A stretch of DNA of 64,000 nucleotides, from the NCBI RefSeq assembly GCF_016858125.1, contig NZ_CP064781.1, positions 2,365,501 to 2,429,500 on the forward strand. The letters run 5' to 3'. Below are positions 3,370-38,146 of the stretch, piece by piece. The notes beneath the pieces were generated by a model that did not search any database, was not told where the DNA came from, and saw only the letters and a program-made list of their open reading frames with translations. This DNA is from Azospira restricta. Lineage in GTDB: Bacteria; Pseudomonadota; Gammaproteobacteria; Burkholderiales; Rhodocyclaceae. Each line of letters begins with the position of its first letter. Position 1 is the stretch's first letter. Both the position numbers and the translations under genes were made by a program.

Positions 3370-4443
3370 ATGAAAACAACACTGCTCGCCCGTCTCGCTC
3401 CCACCCTGCTCGCCTCCACCCTGTTCGCCACCGCGGCGCTCGCCGCGGACAAGCCCGAGGGGCTGCGCGTCATCGACTCCTTCGACGTCGGCAACAACGT
3501 CTACGTGCGCGCGCTGACCGTCGAGAAGCCGGCCAACACGCTGTGGGTCGGCACCTCGGTCGGGGTCATGGAAATCGACCTGAAGACGCAGAAGCCGAAG
3601 AACACCTTCACCCGCCAGCACGGCCTGGCCAACGAGTATGTCTTCGCCGTCGGCGTCGACAGCCAGGGCTACAAGTGGTTCGGCACCAACGCCGGCGGCG
3701 CCTCGCGCTACAAGGACGGTCAGTGGAAGACCTTCTTCCCGCTGCACGGGCTGGCCGACTACTGGATCTACGCCTTCGAGAACGACAAGCAGGGCAACCT
3801 GTGGATCGGCACCTGGGCCGGCGCCAACCACTACGACGTCAAGACCGGCAAGTTCAAGACCTACGTCAAGGAGCTGATCAACGAGTGGGTCTATGGCCTC
3901 ACCGTCGATGCGTCGGGCAAGGTCTGGTTCGGCACCGAGGGCGGCGTGTCGATGTACGACGGCAAGAAGTGGCGCTCGTGGACGCACAAGGACGGCCTCG
4001 GCGCCGACAACGTCGAGAAGCTGCAGGCGAGCCCGAACACCGGCCTCGGCACGCGCTCGCGCCACGACCTGTCGACGATGGTCGAGGGGCTCGGCACCTA
4101 CAACCCGAACTACGTCTTCTCCATCCTCGCGGAACCGAACGGCACGATCTGGGCCGGCACCTGGGGCGGCGGCGTCAGCCGCTACGACGGCAGGAAGTGG
4201 ACCAACCTGACCACGCAGGACGGGCTCGCGGGCAACATCGTCTACTCGATGGCGCGCGACGACAAGGGCGTGTTCTGGTTCGGCACCGACAACGGCGTGT
4301 CGCGCTATGACGGCAAGGGCTGGAAGAATTTCGGCAAGGACCAGGGGCTGCTCGACAGCCATGTCTATGCCGTGGCGATCGCGCCGAACGGCGACGTGTG
4401 GGCCGGCACCAAGCGCGGTGTCGTGCGCATTGCCGAGAAATGA
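3370..4443 (+). CDS. Secreted seven-bladed Reg_prop beta-propeller (copy 1)
   Basis: A 357-residue exported protein: a signal peptide ending near LFATAALAAD, then seven blade signatures of the two-component-regulator-propeller type (WVGT, WFGT, WIGT, WFGT, WAGT, WFGT, WAGT, each followed by a G-x-x-x-Y/I strand). Between blades 4 and 5 there is an insertion of about 35 residues (from NTGLGTRSRH to YNPNYVF). In hybrid sensor kinases this fold forms the periplasmic sensor; here it is free-standing, with no kinase domain attached. It sits 10 bp after the cytochrome gene and before a paralogue. It may be a soluble sensor or a ligand-binding partner for the upstream kinase; that is inference. Confidence 0.85.
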   Translation: MKTTLLARLAPTLLASTLFATAALAADKPEGLRVIDSFDVGNNVYVRALTVEKPANTLWVGTSVGVMEIDLKTQKPKNTFTRQHGLANEYVFAVGVDSQGYKWFGTNAGGASRYKDGQWKTFFPLHGLADYWIYAFENDKQGNLWIGTWAGANHYDVKTGKFKTYVKELINEWVYGLTVDASGKVWFGTEGGVSMYDGKKWRSWTHKDGLGADNVEKLQASPNTGLGTRSRHDLSTMVEGLGTYNPNYVFSILAEPNGTIWAGTWGGGVSRYDGRKWTNLTTQDGLAGNIVYSMARDDKGVFWFGTDNGVSRYDGKGWKNFGKDQGLLDSHVYAVAIAPNGDVWAGTKRGVVRIAEK

Positions 4444-32647: not shown

Positions 32648-34789
32648 ATGGGCGCACTGGAACAACTGATCCGCATCGCGCGGCCGATCCCGCCGTCCGG
32701 CTGGCGGGAAATCGACAGCGACCGGGTACTGCGCTCGCTGGTCAAGAACCTCGACGGCATGGTCTTCCGCTGCGCGCTCGACGCCGAATGGACGGTGCAT
32801 TTCGTCAGCCAGGGCTGCCTCGCGCTGACCGGCTACCGGCCCGAGGAGATCGTCGGCAACCGCATCACTTCGTGCGAGCGCCTGACGCACGAGGATGACC
32901 GCGCCGCGGTGCGGGCGGCGATCATGGCGGCGGTCGCCGACGGCACCCGCTACGCGATCGAATACCGCATCCGCACCCGCGACGGCGTCGTCAAATGGGT
33001 GCGCGAGCGCGGTTCCGGAGTGATCGACGAGCGCGGCGAGCGCGTGCTCGAAGGCTTCATCGAGGACGTCACCGACCAGGTCGCCAGCCAGCACCGGCTG
33101 GTCGAGGCCGAGCTGCGCTTCCGCAGCATCTTCGAGAACTCGGTGATCGGCATGTTCCAGACCACCGCCGACGGCCGCTACCTCGCCGCCAACCGGGCGC
33201 TGGCCGAGCTCTACGGCTACGCCGACCCGGCGGCGCTGATCTCCTGCCTGCGCGACATCGCCGCCACGCTCTACGTCGATCCCGGCCGCCGCGCCGCCTT
33301 CGCCCGGCTGATCCAGGCGAACGGCCGCGTCATCGATTTCGAGTCCGAGGTCTTCCGCGCCGACGGCAGCCGCATCTGGATCGCCGAGAACGCGCACGCG
33401 GTGCACGGCCCGGACGGCGAACTGCTCTACTACGAGGGCACCGTCGAGGACATCACCGAACGCCGCAACTACCAGGCGCGGCTGGAGCACCAGGCGACGC
33501 ACGACCCGCTGACCGGGTTGCCCAACCGCAACCTGCTCGACGACCGCCTGCGGCAGGCGGTGGCGCTCGCCCGGCGCAGCGGCGGCCGCGTGCTGCTCGC
33601 CTTCGTCGACCTCGACAACTTCAAGTTCGTGAACGACAGCCTCGGCCACGCCGCCGGCGACGTGCTGCTGGTCGAGAGCGCGCGCCGGCTGCGCGACTGC
33701 CTGCGCGGCGGCGACACCGTCGCCCGCTACGGCGGCGACGAGTTCGTGCTGATCCTGTCCGACCACGACAAGCTGGACAGCGCGCTGCACGCGCTCGAGC
33801 GGGTCAAGCAGGCGATCGCGCAGCCGCTGACGGTGAGCGGGCAGGAGCTGCGCATCGACTGCAGCATCGGCGTCAGCGTCTATCCCGAGGACGGCGCCGA
33901 GCTGCAGACGCTGCTGCGCCATGCCGACATCGCGATGCACCACGCCAAGCAGCTGGGCAAGGGGCAGTTCCAGTTCTACACCGACGTCCTCAACACCGCC
34001 GCGCACGAGCGGCTAGCGCTGGAGTCGGCACTGCGCGGCGCGATCGACCGCGGCGAGCTGTCGGTCGTCTACCAGCCGAAGGTCGACCGCGACAGCCGGC
34101 CGACCGGCTTCGAGGCGCTGGTGCGCTGGGCCAGCCCGGACTTCGGCACGGTCTCGCCGGCGCGCTTCATCCCGCTCGCCGAGGAGACCGGCACGATCGT
34201 GCCGATCACCGACTTCGTGCTGCGCACCGCCTGCCGCGAAGCGGCGCGCTGGCCGGACGCCGGCCTGTCGGTGGCGGTCAACCTGTCGGCACGGATGTTC
34301 CGCGAGCCGCAGCTCGCCGCGCGCATCGGCGCCATCCTCGCCGAGGCCGGGCTGCCGGCGACGCGGCTCGAGCTCGAGATCACCGAGAGCGCGCTGATGG
34401 GCGACATCGAGCAGACCGCCGAGACCCTGGCGGCGATCAAGGCGCTCGGCATCAGCATTGCGATCGACGACTTCGGCACCGGCTACTCGTCGCTCGCCTA
34501 CCTCAACCGGCTGCCGGTCGACGTGCTGAAGATCGACCGCAGCTTCGTCACCGGCTGCGACCGCGGCGGCGAGGACATGGCCATCCCGTGCGCCATCATC
34601 TCGCTCGGCCACAGCCTGCGCATGCGCATCGTCGCCGAAGGGATCGAGGTCCCGGGGCAGATGGCGATGCTCTCGGCGCAGGGCTGCGAGGAGTTCCAGG
34701 GCTACATGATCGCGCGGCCGCTGTCGGCGGAAGCGGCGTTGGCGTTCCTGCACGGGGAGCATCGGATCAGTGCCGAGGATTGTGTTTAG
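32648..34789 (+). CDS. PAS-PAS-GGDEF-EAL cyclic-di-GMP enzyme
   Basis: A 713-residue cytoplasmic protein: two PAS domains (about 30-145 and 150-270, the second ending [11 protein letters not shown]), GGDEF domain (about 285-445) with intact YGGDEF near residue 362, and EAL domain (from about 455) with EALVRW near 488, ITES and [10 protein letters not shown]. Both active sites look intact, so it may make or degrade c-di-GMP. No membrane helices. Last of the MCP/NIT/GGDEF-EAL run; the long palindrome begins 25 bp after its stop. Confidence 0.92.
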
Positions 34790-34814
34790 CTTTTGAATCG
34801 ACGGACGTGGCGGG

Positions 34815-35322
34815 GTATGCAACCGCTGCGTTCCGCCGCTGACCGGCGGCTCACTTTCTTTTGTCTTGCCAAAAGAAAGTAAGCAAAGAAAAGGCGCGCC
34901 CGCTGCGGCGCCCGGCTGCGCCGGGTGCTCTGCGCTACTCGGTCGCAACGGGGGCTGCGCAACTCGGGCCTGCGGCCCTCAGACAGTGCTCGCCCTTTTT
35001 CCGTTGCGCCCTGCGTTGCTCGACGCCGCACAGGGCAAGGGAAAAACCGCCGCAACCCAGGCATCGGCGGGTTCAGTTTGCGTTCGGTGTTCGGTCCCCT
35101 TTGCCTCGCGCCGAGCAACGCAGACGGGCCGGGGGTTTCGGCGAGGACTGTCTGAGGGCCGCAGGCCCGAGTTCCGCAGCCGCCCGGCCCGGCGAGTAGC
35201 GCAGGGAACCCCCGCGCAGCGGGGGCGCGAGGCCAGGGTCGCCTTTTCTTTGGTTACTTTCTTTTGGCGAAGCAAAAGAAAGTAGCTCGCCGGTCAACGG
35301 CGAAACCCAGCGGTAAATGCCG
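34815..35322. repeat. About 500-bp near-perfect palindromic element
   Basis: The left half and the reverse complement of the right half match over their whole length. Outer 44 bp: ACTTTCTTTTG..CAAAAGAAAGT with a 3-base-different copy at 35241-35284; each of these ends is itself a hairpin (34853-34880 and 35252-35284). Inner arms also pair, for example ACTCGGGCCTGCGGCCCTCA (about 34962) against its complement near 35151. Apparent proteins inside are overlapping repeat readings and not genes. It lies between convergent genes (GGDEF-EAL and recJ). A mobile, MITE-like or termination role is possible. Confidence 0.85.
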
Positions 35323-35363
35323 CCGGAGCGCCAGGCGAGAGCCAGATTCAGGTCGGCAGAACA

Positions 35364-37094
35364 TCAAACGTTCTGCAAATGCTCCACCATCAACTGCACA
35401 CTCTGCACGCCGTTGTACTCGTTCACGCTCAAGCGATACGCCGCCCGCACCTCATCCCCCGGCGCCTCGCCGAAGTTGAACTGGATCGCGTCGAAGCGCA
35501 GCCCGCCCGCCCGCAGGCGCAGCTTGAGGTGCTTCTCCTTGAGCACGCGCTGCTGCTCGACGGTGAACCGTCCCTCGAACAGCGGCGCCGGAAAACCCTG
35601 TCCCCAGATCTCGTTCTCCAAGAGGCGGGCGGTTTCCAGCGAGAAGTAGCCGGATTCGAGGGTGCCGTCGGTGTGCAGCGTGCGGGTGAGGTCGTCCTCG
35701 GCGAGCAGCTCGTCGGCGACCGCCGCGAACAGTTCGCGGAAGCGCGGGAAGTCGGCTTCGTCGATGGTGACGCCGGCCGCCGCGGCGTGGCCGCCGAACT
35801 TCTTCAACAGGCCCGGCGCCCGCTTCGAGACGAGGTCGAGCGCGTCCCTCAGGTGCAGGCCGGGGATCGAGCGCCCCGAGCCGCGTAGCTGGCCGCTGCC
35901 GTCGTCGGTCTCCTCGTCGGCGCGGGCGAAGGCGAACACCGGGCGGTGCAGCTTTTCCTTGATGCGCGAGGCGACGATGCCGACCACGCCCTGGTGCCAG
36001 TCGGGCTCGAACAGCGCGATGCCGGCAGTGTCTGCGACGTCCACATGTTCCAGCGCGGCCAGCGCCTGCTCCTGCATGCCGGCCTCGATCTCGCGCCGTT
36101 CCTTGTTCAGCGCGTCGAGCTGCTGTGCGATGTTGAGCGCACGCGCCGCGTCGTCGGTGGCGAGGCACTCGATGCCGAGCGACATGTCGGCGAGGCGCCC
36201 GGCGGCATTGAGCCGCGGGCCGAGCATGAAGCCGAGGTCGAAGGTCGTGGCCTTGGCCGGGTCGCGGCCGGCGGCGCGGAAGAGGGCGGCGATGCCCGGC
36301 GTCAGCTTGCCGTCGCGCATGCGCTTCAGGCCCTGGCTGACGAGGATGCGGTTGTTGCGGTCGAGGCGGACGACGTCGGCGACGGTGCCGAGCGCGACCA
36401 GGTCGAGCAGCGTCGCCAGGTTGAACTCCGCTCGCCCGTTTTCCGGCGCGAACCAGCCGCGCGCGCGCAGCTCGGCCCTGAGCGCGAGCATCACGTAGAA
36501 CATGACGCCGACGCCGGCGATGCACTTCGATTCGAAGCCGCAGCCGGGCTGGTTCGGGTTCACGATGCACTCGGCGTCGGGCAGCGTCTCGCCGGGCAGG
36601 TGGTGGTCGGTGACGAGCACGGCGACGCCCAGCTCGTGCGCGCGGGCGACGCCCTCGACGCTGGCGATGCCGTTGTCGACGGTGACGATCAGGTCCGGCG
36701 ACATCGTCGCCGCGAGCTCGACGACCGACGGCGACAGCCCGTAGCCATGCACGAAGCGATCGGGAACGAGGTAGCCGATCTCGGCGCCGCTGCCCTGGGC
36801 CATCGCGCGCAGCGCGCGCAGGCCGACGGCGCAGGCGGTGGCGCCGTCGCAGTCGTAGTCGGCGACGATCAGGATGCGCGCCTCGGCCTCCAGCGCGTCG
36901 GCGAGCAGCGCTGCGGCTTCATTGGCGCGGGTCAGCGAGGCCGGCGGCAGCAGCGACTTCAGGTCGTAGTCGAGCTCGGCCGCGCTCTCGATGCCGCGCG
37001 CGGCATAGATGCGCGCGAGCAGCGGGTGCAGGCCCTGCTGCTCGAGCGCCCAACTGCGGCGTGGCGGGATGTCGCGGGCGACGATGCGGGTCAT
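35364..37094 (-). CDS. recJ: Single-stranded-DNA-specific exonuclease RecJ
   Basis: A 576-residue 5'-3' exonuclease for recombination and mismatch repair. DHH-family motifs: VADYDCDGATACAVGL, VDNGIA, LVTDHHLPGE and, in the DHHA1 part, KFGGHAAAAGVTI. The ATG at 37094 overlaps the stop of the RpfE-like gene by 4 bp. Ends close to the right edge of the long palindrome. Confidence 0.96.
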   Translation of the reverse strand: MTRIVARDIPPRRSWALEQQGLHPLLARIYAARGIESAAELDYDLKSLLPPASLTRANEAAALLADALEAEARILIVADYDCDGATACAVGLRALRAMAQGSGAEIGYLVPDRFVHGYGLSPSVVELAATMSPDLIVTVDNGIASVEGVARAHELGVAVLVTDHHLPGETLPDAECIVNPNQPGCGFESKCIAGVGVMFYVMLALRAELRARGWFAPENGRAEFNLATLLDLVALGTVADVVRLDRNNRILVSQGLKRMRDGKLTPGIAALFRAAGRDPAKATTFDLGFMLGPRLNAAGRLADMSLGIECLATDDAARALNIAQQLDALNKERREIEAGMQEQALAALEHVDVADTAGIALFEPDWHQGVVGIVASRIKEKLHRPVFAFARADEETDDGSGQLRGSGRSIPGLHLRDALDLVSKRAPGLLKKFGGHAAAAGVTIDEADFPRFRELFAAVADELLAEDDLTRTLHTDGTLESGYFSLETARLLENEIWGQGFPAPLFEGRFTVEQQRVLKEKHLKLRLRAGGLRFDAIQFNFGEAPGDEVRAAYRLSVNEYNGVQSVQLMVEHLQNV

Positions 37095-38146
37095 GCCGAG
37101 CCTCCTTCGGCCAGCGCCTGCGCCACCGCCTGCAGCGGCTGCGGCCGCTGCCAGAAGCGCCACAGCTCGCCGCGCCCGACTTCCCAGCCGAGCTCGCCGT
37201 AGATCGTGCTGGCGCGCAGGTCGAGGCTGACCCGGCCGCGGCGGATCGCCGCAACGAGCGGCGCGAACCAGTCGCGTTCGAGCGCAGCGAGGCCGTCGCG
37301 CCAGGCTTCGGCGTCCTCGTACTGCACCGCGCGCAGCAGCGACTCGAGCGTCACCAGCACCTTGCCGTCGCCGCTTACCTGTTTTTCCAGCGCCGCGAAG
37401 CCGGCCGGTGCGGCGTGCGCCGGCACGCCGGCGCAGCGGGCCATCCCGCGCGCCAGCGGATGGTCGCTGCAGACCGCGCTCCAGTCGCTCTGCAGCCCGC
37501 GCGGCAGCGCGCCCGGTCCCCACAGCCACAGGCTGTTCACGGTCATGCGCCCGGCGTCGGCGCGGGCCTCGTTCACCGCGTGCCCGTGCAGCAGCATCTG
37601 CGCCTCGTTCAGCAGCTTGCGCAGCCAGGCGGTGCGGCCTTCCTCGGGCAGCTGCCGGTCGACGCGGCGGCCGGCCATCGCTGAGAGCGGCGGCGTCTCG
37701 AAGTCGGCGGCGGCCGAGAGGCGCAGGTACCAGCGCTCCGGCGCCGCCGCGCGAAACTCGCCGACGTCGCCGAAAAAGCGGTTCAGCTCGCCGGTCAGCG
37801 CCTCGGCCTCGGCCGCGCTGATCTCGATGCGCGTGCCGTCGGCGAGGATCAGCCGCTCCTGGTGGAAGCGCAGGTGCACCGGGTCGGCGCAGGCCCACAG
37901 CTGCTCGCCGGGATCGAGGCCCTCGCCGAGCAGGCGCAGCGCGGCGTAGGGCACGGCGCGGTCGAGGCCGAAGGCGCGGGCGATGGCGGCGTCGAAGGTG
38001 GCCGCGGTGTTCGGGCTCCGCGCGGCATCAGCGCGGCGGCCGCGCGCCAGCAGCGTTGCGAGCGCCGGGCAGGCGAGGCCGGCGAAGGTCTCGGCGTCGC
38101 CGGGTTCGGGCCAGATCAGTTCGGGGATGAGCAGCGTCAGGCGCAT
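37091..38146 (-). CDS. RpfE-like protein encoded upstream of recJ
   Basis: A 351-residue protein. The pairing with recJ and nearness of prfB-lysS match the position of rpfE in the Xanthomonas rpf region; some members are annotated as phosphoglycerate-mutase-like. Visible: an N-terminal segment TLLIPELIWPEPGD, SLWLWGPGALP, and a long helical C-terminus. Biochemical function not established to my knowledge. Overlaps recJ by 4 bp. Confidence 0.7.
   Translation of the reverse strand: MRLTLLIPELIWPEPGDAETFAGLACPALATLLARGRRADAARSPNTAATFDAAIARAFGLDRAVPYAALRLLGEGLDPGEQLWACADPVHLRFHQERLILADGTRIEISAAEAEALTGELNRFFGDVGEFRAAAPERWYLRLSAAADFETPPLSAMAGRRVDRQLPEEGRTAWLRKLLNEAQMLLHGHAVNEARADAGRMTVNSLWLWGPGALPRGLQSDWSAVCSDHPLARGMARCAGVPAHAAPAGFAALEKQVSGDGKVLVTLESLLRAVQYEDAEAWRDGLAALERDWFAPLVAAIRRGRVSLDLRASTIYGELGWEVGRGELWRFWQRPQPLQAVAQALAEGGSA

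Follow-up and report, generated by a model that had tools for sequence, protein, structure and literature searches.

A 493-bp palindrome in Azospira restricta: a likely empty copy of a dispersed repeat whose paired, structured arms elsewhere bracket cargo

Between two convergent genes of Azospira restricta, the window (the stretch of 64,000 nucleotides that was analysed) contains a large imperfect palindrome. On balance, we favour reading it as one copy, empty and probably inactive, of a non-autonomous repeat that is dispersed, has two distinct, inward-facing arms and would be mobilised in trans. A wider reading, which we put forward tentatively as possible rather than probable, is that the family is a mobile cargo system, widespread in proteobacteria and matched by a single arm in a fusobacterial plasmid. 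Its ends would be two distinct pseudoknot-triplex arms, and it would carry immunity-type genes, even integrase-less integrons, and be moved by an enzyme that reads single-strand structure. Here, we describe the palindrome and its arms, their distribution and their cargo, and then weigh the explanations for them.

The palindrome spans positions 34822-35314 (493 bp) and is 75% identical to its own complement (E 2e-72), which bears out the near-palindrome described in an earlier sequence-only reading. It is composed of an outer inverted arm pair (34822-34913/35223-35314; 92 nt, 79% complementary), a middle pair (34923-34994/35140-35211; 72 nt, 83% complementary) and an inner pair (35011-35026/35108-35123; 94% complementary), and as RNA it folds at -361.7 kcal/mol, against a mean of -234 for shuffled sequences (z -20.3). 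The same reading had each end folding on itself over 44 bp; a hairpin is indeed present near each end, at 34853-34880 and 35255-35284, measuring 28-30 nt and lying about 30 nt inward of the ends of similarity. Within the window this hairpin pattern is unique to the palindrome, with none expected from shuffles, and the palindrome is the sole copy in its own 3.98 Mb single-contig genome. The long overlapping ORFs inside it, which the earlier reading took to be spurious, match no Pfam family, and an Rfam search of the palindrome returned nothing but a sub-threshold chance match. A gene for a PAS-GGDEF-EAL protein and recJ converge on it. The parts of the element and its neighbours are as follows:

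34803-35340, no strand: whole element; outer ends approximate, from comparison with genomes G002 and G003 and with the arms of genome G026
34803-34994, + strand: L-type arm, inner signature GACAGTGCTCGCCC; from the L/R arm alignment of window, G003 and G026 elements
34835-34850, + strand: outer G+C hairpin that leads into the proposed triplex hairpin on its T-rich strand; also in G026, G013 and Variovorax arms
34853-34880, + strand: stem S1 of the proposed left triplex hairpin, ACTTTCTTTTG-tcttgc-CAAAAGAAAGT
34885-34892, + strand: putative left third-strand tract AAAGAAAA, mirror of the S1 purine strand AAAAGAAA
34893-34896, + strand: left GGCG; its GGC and a GCC in the S1 loop (3' side) make up the proposed pseudoknot stem S2, shortened here; from sequence and family covariation
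35039-35107, no strand: short loop between the arms, the empty state without cargo
35108-35340, - strand: R-type arm, inner signature GACAGTCCTCGCCGAAA; from the arm alignment
35255-35284, - strand: stem S1 of the proposed right triplex hairpin, TACTTTCTTTTG-cttcgc-CAAAAGAAAGTA on the minus strand; match to arm model R1 of 59.3 bits
35244-35251, - strand: putative right third-strand tract, AAAGAAAA on the minus strand
35240-35243, - strand: right GGCG on the minus strand, pairing with CGCC of the right loop (proposed stem S2)
32648-34789, + strand: left neighbour, PAS-GGDEF-EAL protein (Pfam EAL 4e-67, GGDEF 2e-46)
35364-37898, - strand: right neighbour, recJ (Pfam DHH, DHHA1, RecJ_OB); the listed ORF reaches upstream of the likely start

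The arms of the family share a fixed order, in which a hairpin of the form CTTTCTTTTG-N6-CAAAAGAAAG is followed by a short linker and a purine tract that mirrors the purine strand of the hairpin. The mirror tract changes along with the stem (the pairs being AAAGAAAA/AAAAGAAA, AAGAAAAA/AAAAAGAA, AAGAGAAA/AAAGAGAA, AAGAAGAAA/AAAGAAGAA and AAAAGAA/AAGAAAA). Because the scan pattern had itself fixed the stem and tract of one arm per locus, the count was restricted to 48 asymmetric-stem arms, solely those not fixed by the pattern and those of loci found otherwise; an exact mirror tract is present in 45 of them and an exact direct copy in none. When only one tract was taken per stem variant, which guards against the non-independence of related arms, 12 of 13 were mirrors (permutation mean 3.0, maximum 9 in 20,000). 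In addition, the 3' side of the loop complements the bases just past the tract (CGCC/GGCG, CGTC/GACG, CCCC/GGGG, CTGC/GCAG), with a mean run of 3.17 (permutation mean 1.63, maximum 2.43). The mirror constraint acts within an arm and not between arms, since the two arms of one element may differ in stem, each with its own mirror tract. Mirror identity provides no Watson-Crick pairing; the established rules for triplexes (PMC4666352) demand it of a third strand that runs antiparallel to the purine strand it lies on. Mirror tract and loop pairing together would be the signature of an intrastrand triplex with H-type pseudoknot topology, as we infer from the covarying sequences. The order that defines a class II intrastrand triplex (Y stem, loop, R stem, short linker, mirrored R tract) is found in the window at 34853-34892 and 35244-35284. 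Alignment sorts the arms into two types, L and R, which differ consistently (GACAGTGCTCGCCC vs GACAGTCCTCGCCGAAA); the first covariance model served as a sequence model only, without base pairs, because stem lengths vary.

The sequence-only reading had proposed a search for further copies, and these turned up in relatives and not elsewhere in the genome itself. Arm matches are present in 20 of 61 genomes (its own and relatives) by DNA search and likewise in 20 of 61 by arm model R1, and of 249 genomes sampled across the phylum, 47 have matches. In a pattern scan of one genome per species, the matches listed include Variovorax, Polaromonas, Acidovorax, Thiobacillus, Dechloromonas, Azonexus, Vogesella, Methylomonas, Methylobacter, Gallionella relatives and further taxa, and among the matches listed the named genera with arms number in the dozens. 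An arm pair is present in Pasteurella and a single arm in the fusobacterium Ilyobacter, and in a plasmid collection the core motif is found in Caballeronia, Pasteurella and Ilyobacter records. The whole element gives two partial matches to plasmids and none to phages, and the core motif has no match in 5,426 E. coli genomes. Matches of 22 nt in Lak phages and Acinetobacter phages were set aside as lacking a hairpin partner and lying in an A-rich context; in a Prevotella Lak phage (L058) and Acinetobacter phage BS46 (L059) the sequence AAAGAAAGTAACCAAAGAAA, the 3' half of the motif, occurs without a hairpin, and a search for it counted 10 places per Lak genome. Six copies in genome G013 are 75-94% identical to each other, while their flanks are 43-51% identical; judged by these alignments, the family is dispersed at unrelated sites, a MITE-like trait, though present as a single copy in its own genome. 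About 100 bp beyond the right arm, including TTGGGCTTCGCNAAGCTCAGCCCAAC, are common to the G013 copies L039-L043 and may be another repeat.

The locus itself has a history in related genomes. The congener G003 has, again between the EAL gene and recJ, a copy 85% identical to that of the window, and this copy is inverted, with its L arm towards recJ, whereas in the window it lies towards the EAL gene. Genome G002, about 89% identical across the joined flanks, lacks the element except for about 13 nt of its L end, which abut the flank seen next to recJ in G003. Because this remnant remains, the G002 site is a deletion and not a pristine pre-insertion site, and from the inverted G003 copy and the G002 remnant it follows that an ancestor probably carried the element at the EAL-recJ site. 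From these comparisons, the element is probably old there, with a later inversion in one lineage and a deletion in another. A crossover within the arms is no simple cause of the inversion, since all of the L end, down to its outermost bases, has been turned round; independent insertion in the window and G003 lineages may alternatively account for the opposite orientation. In another congener, G001 (L221, G001:C10:28500-33000), the place that the element would have, between the EAL gene and recJ, is taken by a different large GGDEF/EAL-like gene.

Arms are paired, and the interval between them varies in a way that suggests an empty and a loaded state. Among neighbouring arms within 6 kb in the 61 genomes, 35 of 43 face inward, 4 outward and 4 in tandem, and the inward spacing is bimodal, with 21 pairs at 417-671 bp (empty) and 14 at 1.09-5.47 kb (loaded, in six genera). 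Loaded pairs are also found beyond these six genera, in G246 and in Methylomonas. All 12 arms of G026 form inward pairs, six in total, 1.4-5.5 kb apart, and for named loci among the matches listed 34 of 35 pairs are empty (342-656 bp), the pair of Methylomonas methanica holding a DUF5677 gene. Two outward-facing arm pairs, 140-160 bp apart and the reverse of the usual orientation, occur at L052 and G060:C3:297876-298136, and one 2.7 kb arm interval in G267 holds ordinary-looking chromosomal genes and is unconvincing as a pair. The cargo has a G+C content 5-23 percentage points below that of its flanks (e.g. 0.49 vs 0.68). Among its products are a TIR protein, close to models of Thoeris ThsB, a nuclease of Mrr type (Mrr_cat), HEPN, an ion channel, DUF5677, an AAA protein that is near IetA and has TPR and nuclease-like proteins beside it, a DUF4238 match below Pfam's cut-off, and many orphans; going by the TIR, HEPN and Mrr domains, our guess would be a role in immunity. 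In the cargo examined in sampled collections, no transposase or recombinase was recognised, apart from an integrase-repeat match of doubtful significance in L237. The window copy, for its part, holds no cargo and may have no present-day activity.

In G026, some of the cargo is integron material. attC sites are present (a textbook attC of 81 nt in L034 and several in L075), and four of the pairs have an attI-like stretch just inside the R arm, 87% identical over 71 nt to the attI beside intI (E 6.5e-18). No intI lies inside the G026 arm pairs, and the single full intI, at C3:84197, has no arms near it; with attI and attC inside arm pairs and intI elsewhere, attI and cassettes have therefore been dispersed in arm pairs, the integrase being left behind. 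At L033-L037 and L075, attI-like sites and cassettes are found at several loci, inside arm pairs and a long way from the genome's one intI gene. At one locus, the congener G061 shares with G026 the R arm and a gene, and differs in its cargo and far flank; at the same locus G062 has ordinary genes. Neither attC nor attI was seen in the window copy.

In the mechanism that we favour, an arm that becomes single-stranded, in replication, conjugation, transformation, cruciform extrusion or as RNA, would fold into an H-type pseudoknot with a triple helix, and an enzyme acting in trans would recognise two such structured arms as the ends of one unit and move or exchange the interval between them. The window copy would have lost its cargo or never held any, and its imperfect arms and central loop presumably make the palindrome tolerable to the cell. 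The earlier proposal of a non-autonomous mobile element thus stands in kind, the family being dispersed and having loaded forms with foreign-looking cargo in several genera; what it lacks is a mobilising enzyme, none having been found, and the target-site duplications that the sequence-only reading had suggested looking for, none of which was recognised at the sites compared, where the ends of the element are fuzzy. These two absences speak for the main rival, homologous exchange between arms, in which no dedicated enzyme is involved and the arms are conserved homology blocks, fragile and hairpin-prone, where foreign DNA is swapped by RecA recombination or through the repair of breaks, natural transformation being one possible occasion. 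G026 arms that are 85-95% identical between loci around different cargo, and the G061 arms and flank that match G026 around yet another cargo, speak for such exchange; elements also nest in one another (Variovorax L054, L089, L167), and triplex repeats have been tied to local instability (Holder et al. 2015, PMC4666352). On its own, however, exchange between arms explains neither the spread to new, unrelated loci seen in G013 nor the conserved triplex geometry, and we regard it as rather unlikely.

A role at the RNA level, as a bidirectional transcription terminator or insulator at gene ends, seems improbable to us. The window copy sits between convergent genes and has at each end a G+C hairpin followed by a T-rich stretch, with 4 terminator-like sites against 1.3 expected (sd 1.6), so that weak termination of incoming transcripts may occur there; but the T tract is interrupted, and for the related TMECO/PIT motif Holder et al. 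2015 (PMC4666352) report that previous assays had shown neither promoter nor terminator activity. The 24 pairs with gene context, taken from long ORFs, comprise 7 convergent, 13 tandem and 4 divergent, near 1:2:1, which speaks against a general role as the dual transcription barrier between convergent genes suggested earlier. Intergenic paired inverted hairpins are likewise a feature of REP/REPIN elements, mobilised by a REP-associated Y1 tyrosine transposase, and such an origin is very improbable here: Y1_Tnp is absent from 9 of the 20 arm-positive genomes (G000, G003, G009, G012, G026, G033, G035, G040, G056), its occurrence has no association with that of the arms (p 0.78), and the genome of the window itself has no match to PF01797. 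A resident Y1/RAYT as mobiliser is largely refuted by these absences and the missing association, although past exposure to one may have occurred. Least of all do we believe in a chance palindrome or a collapsed assembly duplication, for which the single copy in its own genome could be cited: there is a G003 homologue at the same locus, the element has relatives in many genera and its fold has a z of -20. As the G003 copy and the relatives come from independent assemblies, the palindrome is, on these comparisons, not an assembly artefact, and the doubt raised earlier on this point falls away.

Paired intrastrand-triplex repeats have, to our knowledge, been on record in bacteria from about 2000 onwards, with no function assigned to them. 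Here a related family, itself very widespread, brackets cargo, and its putative triplex geometry is maintained by covariation; a motif so far without a role thereby becomes a signal for end recognition that can be tested. Arm pairs would in addition be a route to small gene cassettes that current tools for finding genomic islands possibly overlook, candidate phage-defence genes among them. The closest known relatives are the G/C-rich TMECO/PIT of enterobacteria, for which the triplex forms in vitro and which mark unstable loci (PMC4666352; Hoyne et al., cited therein). TMECO are intergenic and in E. coli form inverted pairs, each of a type A and a type B motif, at loci that vary between strains, and Holder et al. 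2015 (PMC4666352) found no link between them and mobile elements. The likeness lies in the Y-loop-R-linker-R order on one strand (class II), the intergenic position, the frequent inverted pairs and the pairing of type A with type B, like L with R arms here. In contrast, the present family has A/T-rich stems, arms of about 200 bp with further hairpins, a covarying second stem and bracketed cargo, and the main text of PMC4666352 describes neither cargo nor the present motif. The TMECO consensus CCCTCNCCC...GGGNGAGGG is not found in the window element, the stem CTTTCTTTTG belonging to another sequence family, and in the open-licence papers searched by sequence words and concepts no description of the A/T-rich family was found. 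G/C-rich TMECO-type pairs are nested in or around an A/T-rich pair in three Variovorax loci (plasmid L054 2494-3210, L089 2230-2681 and L167 about 3400-4130). At the E. coli ygfF-gcvP TMECO locus (L233 1495-1625), about 44% of genomes are without a place that covers most of it, which is suggestive; sampled E. coli genomes match on the gcvP side only, and the match breaks off about 30 nt outside the TMECO pair.

Three further systems invite comparison. MITEs are short and non-autonomous, with inverted ends and dispersed intergenic copies, and sometimes bracket integron material, as in MITE-bracketed integrons. The arm family shares all of these traits; it differs in having no recognised transposase parent or target duplication and in its ends, which are structured arms of about 200 bp and of two types instead of short terminal repeats. 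With REP/REPIN elements and their RAYT it has intergenic inverted hairpins in common, whereas the arm elements are larger, have another sequence and need no Y1 transposase. CALIN and In0 are integrase-less cassette arrays. Cargo of other genera has no visible att sites; that of G026 resembles these arrays in having attC and attI without intI and differs from them in that its att sites lie between the proposed triplex arms, at several loci of one genome, so that integron attI sites and cassettes are here seen dispersed away from their integrase.
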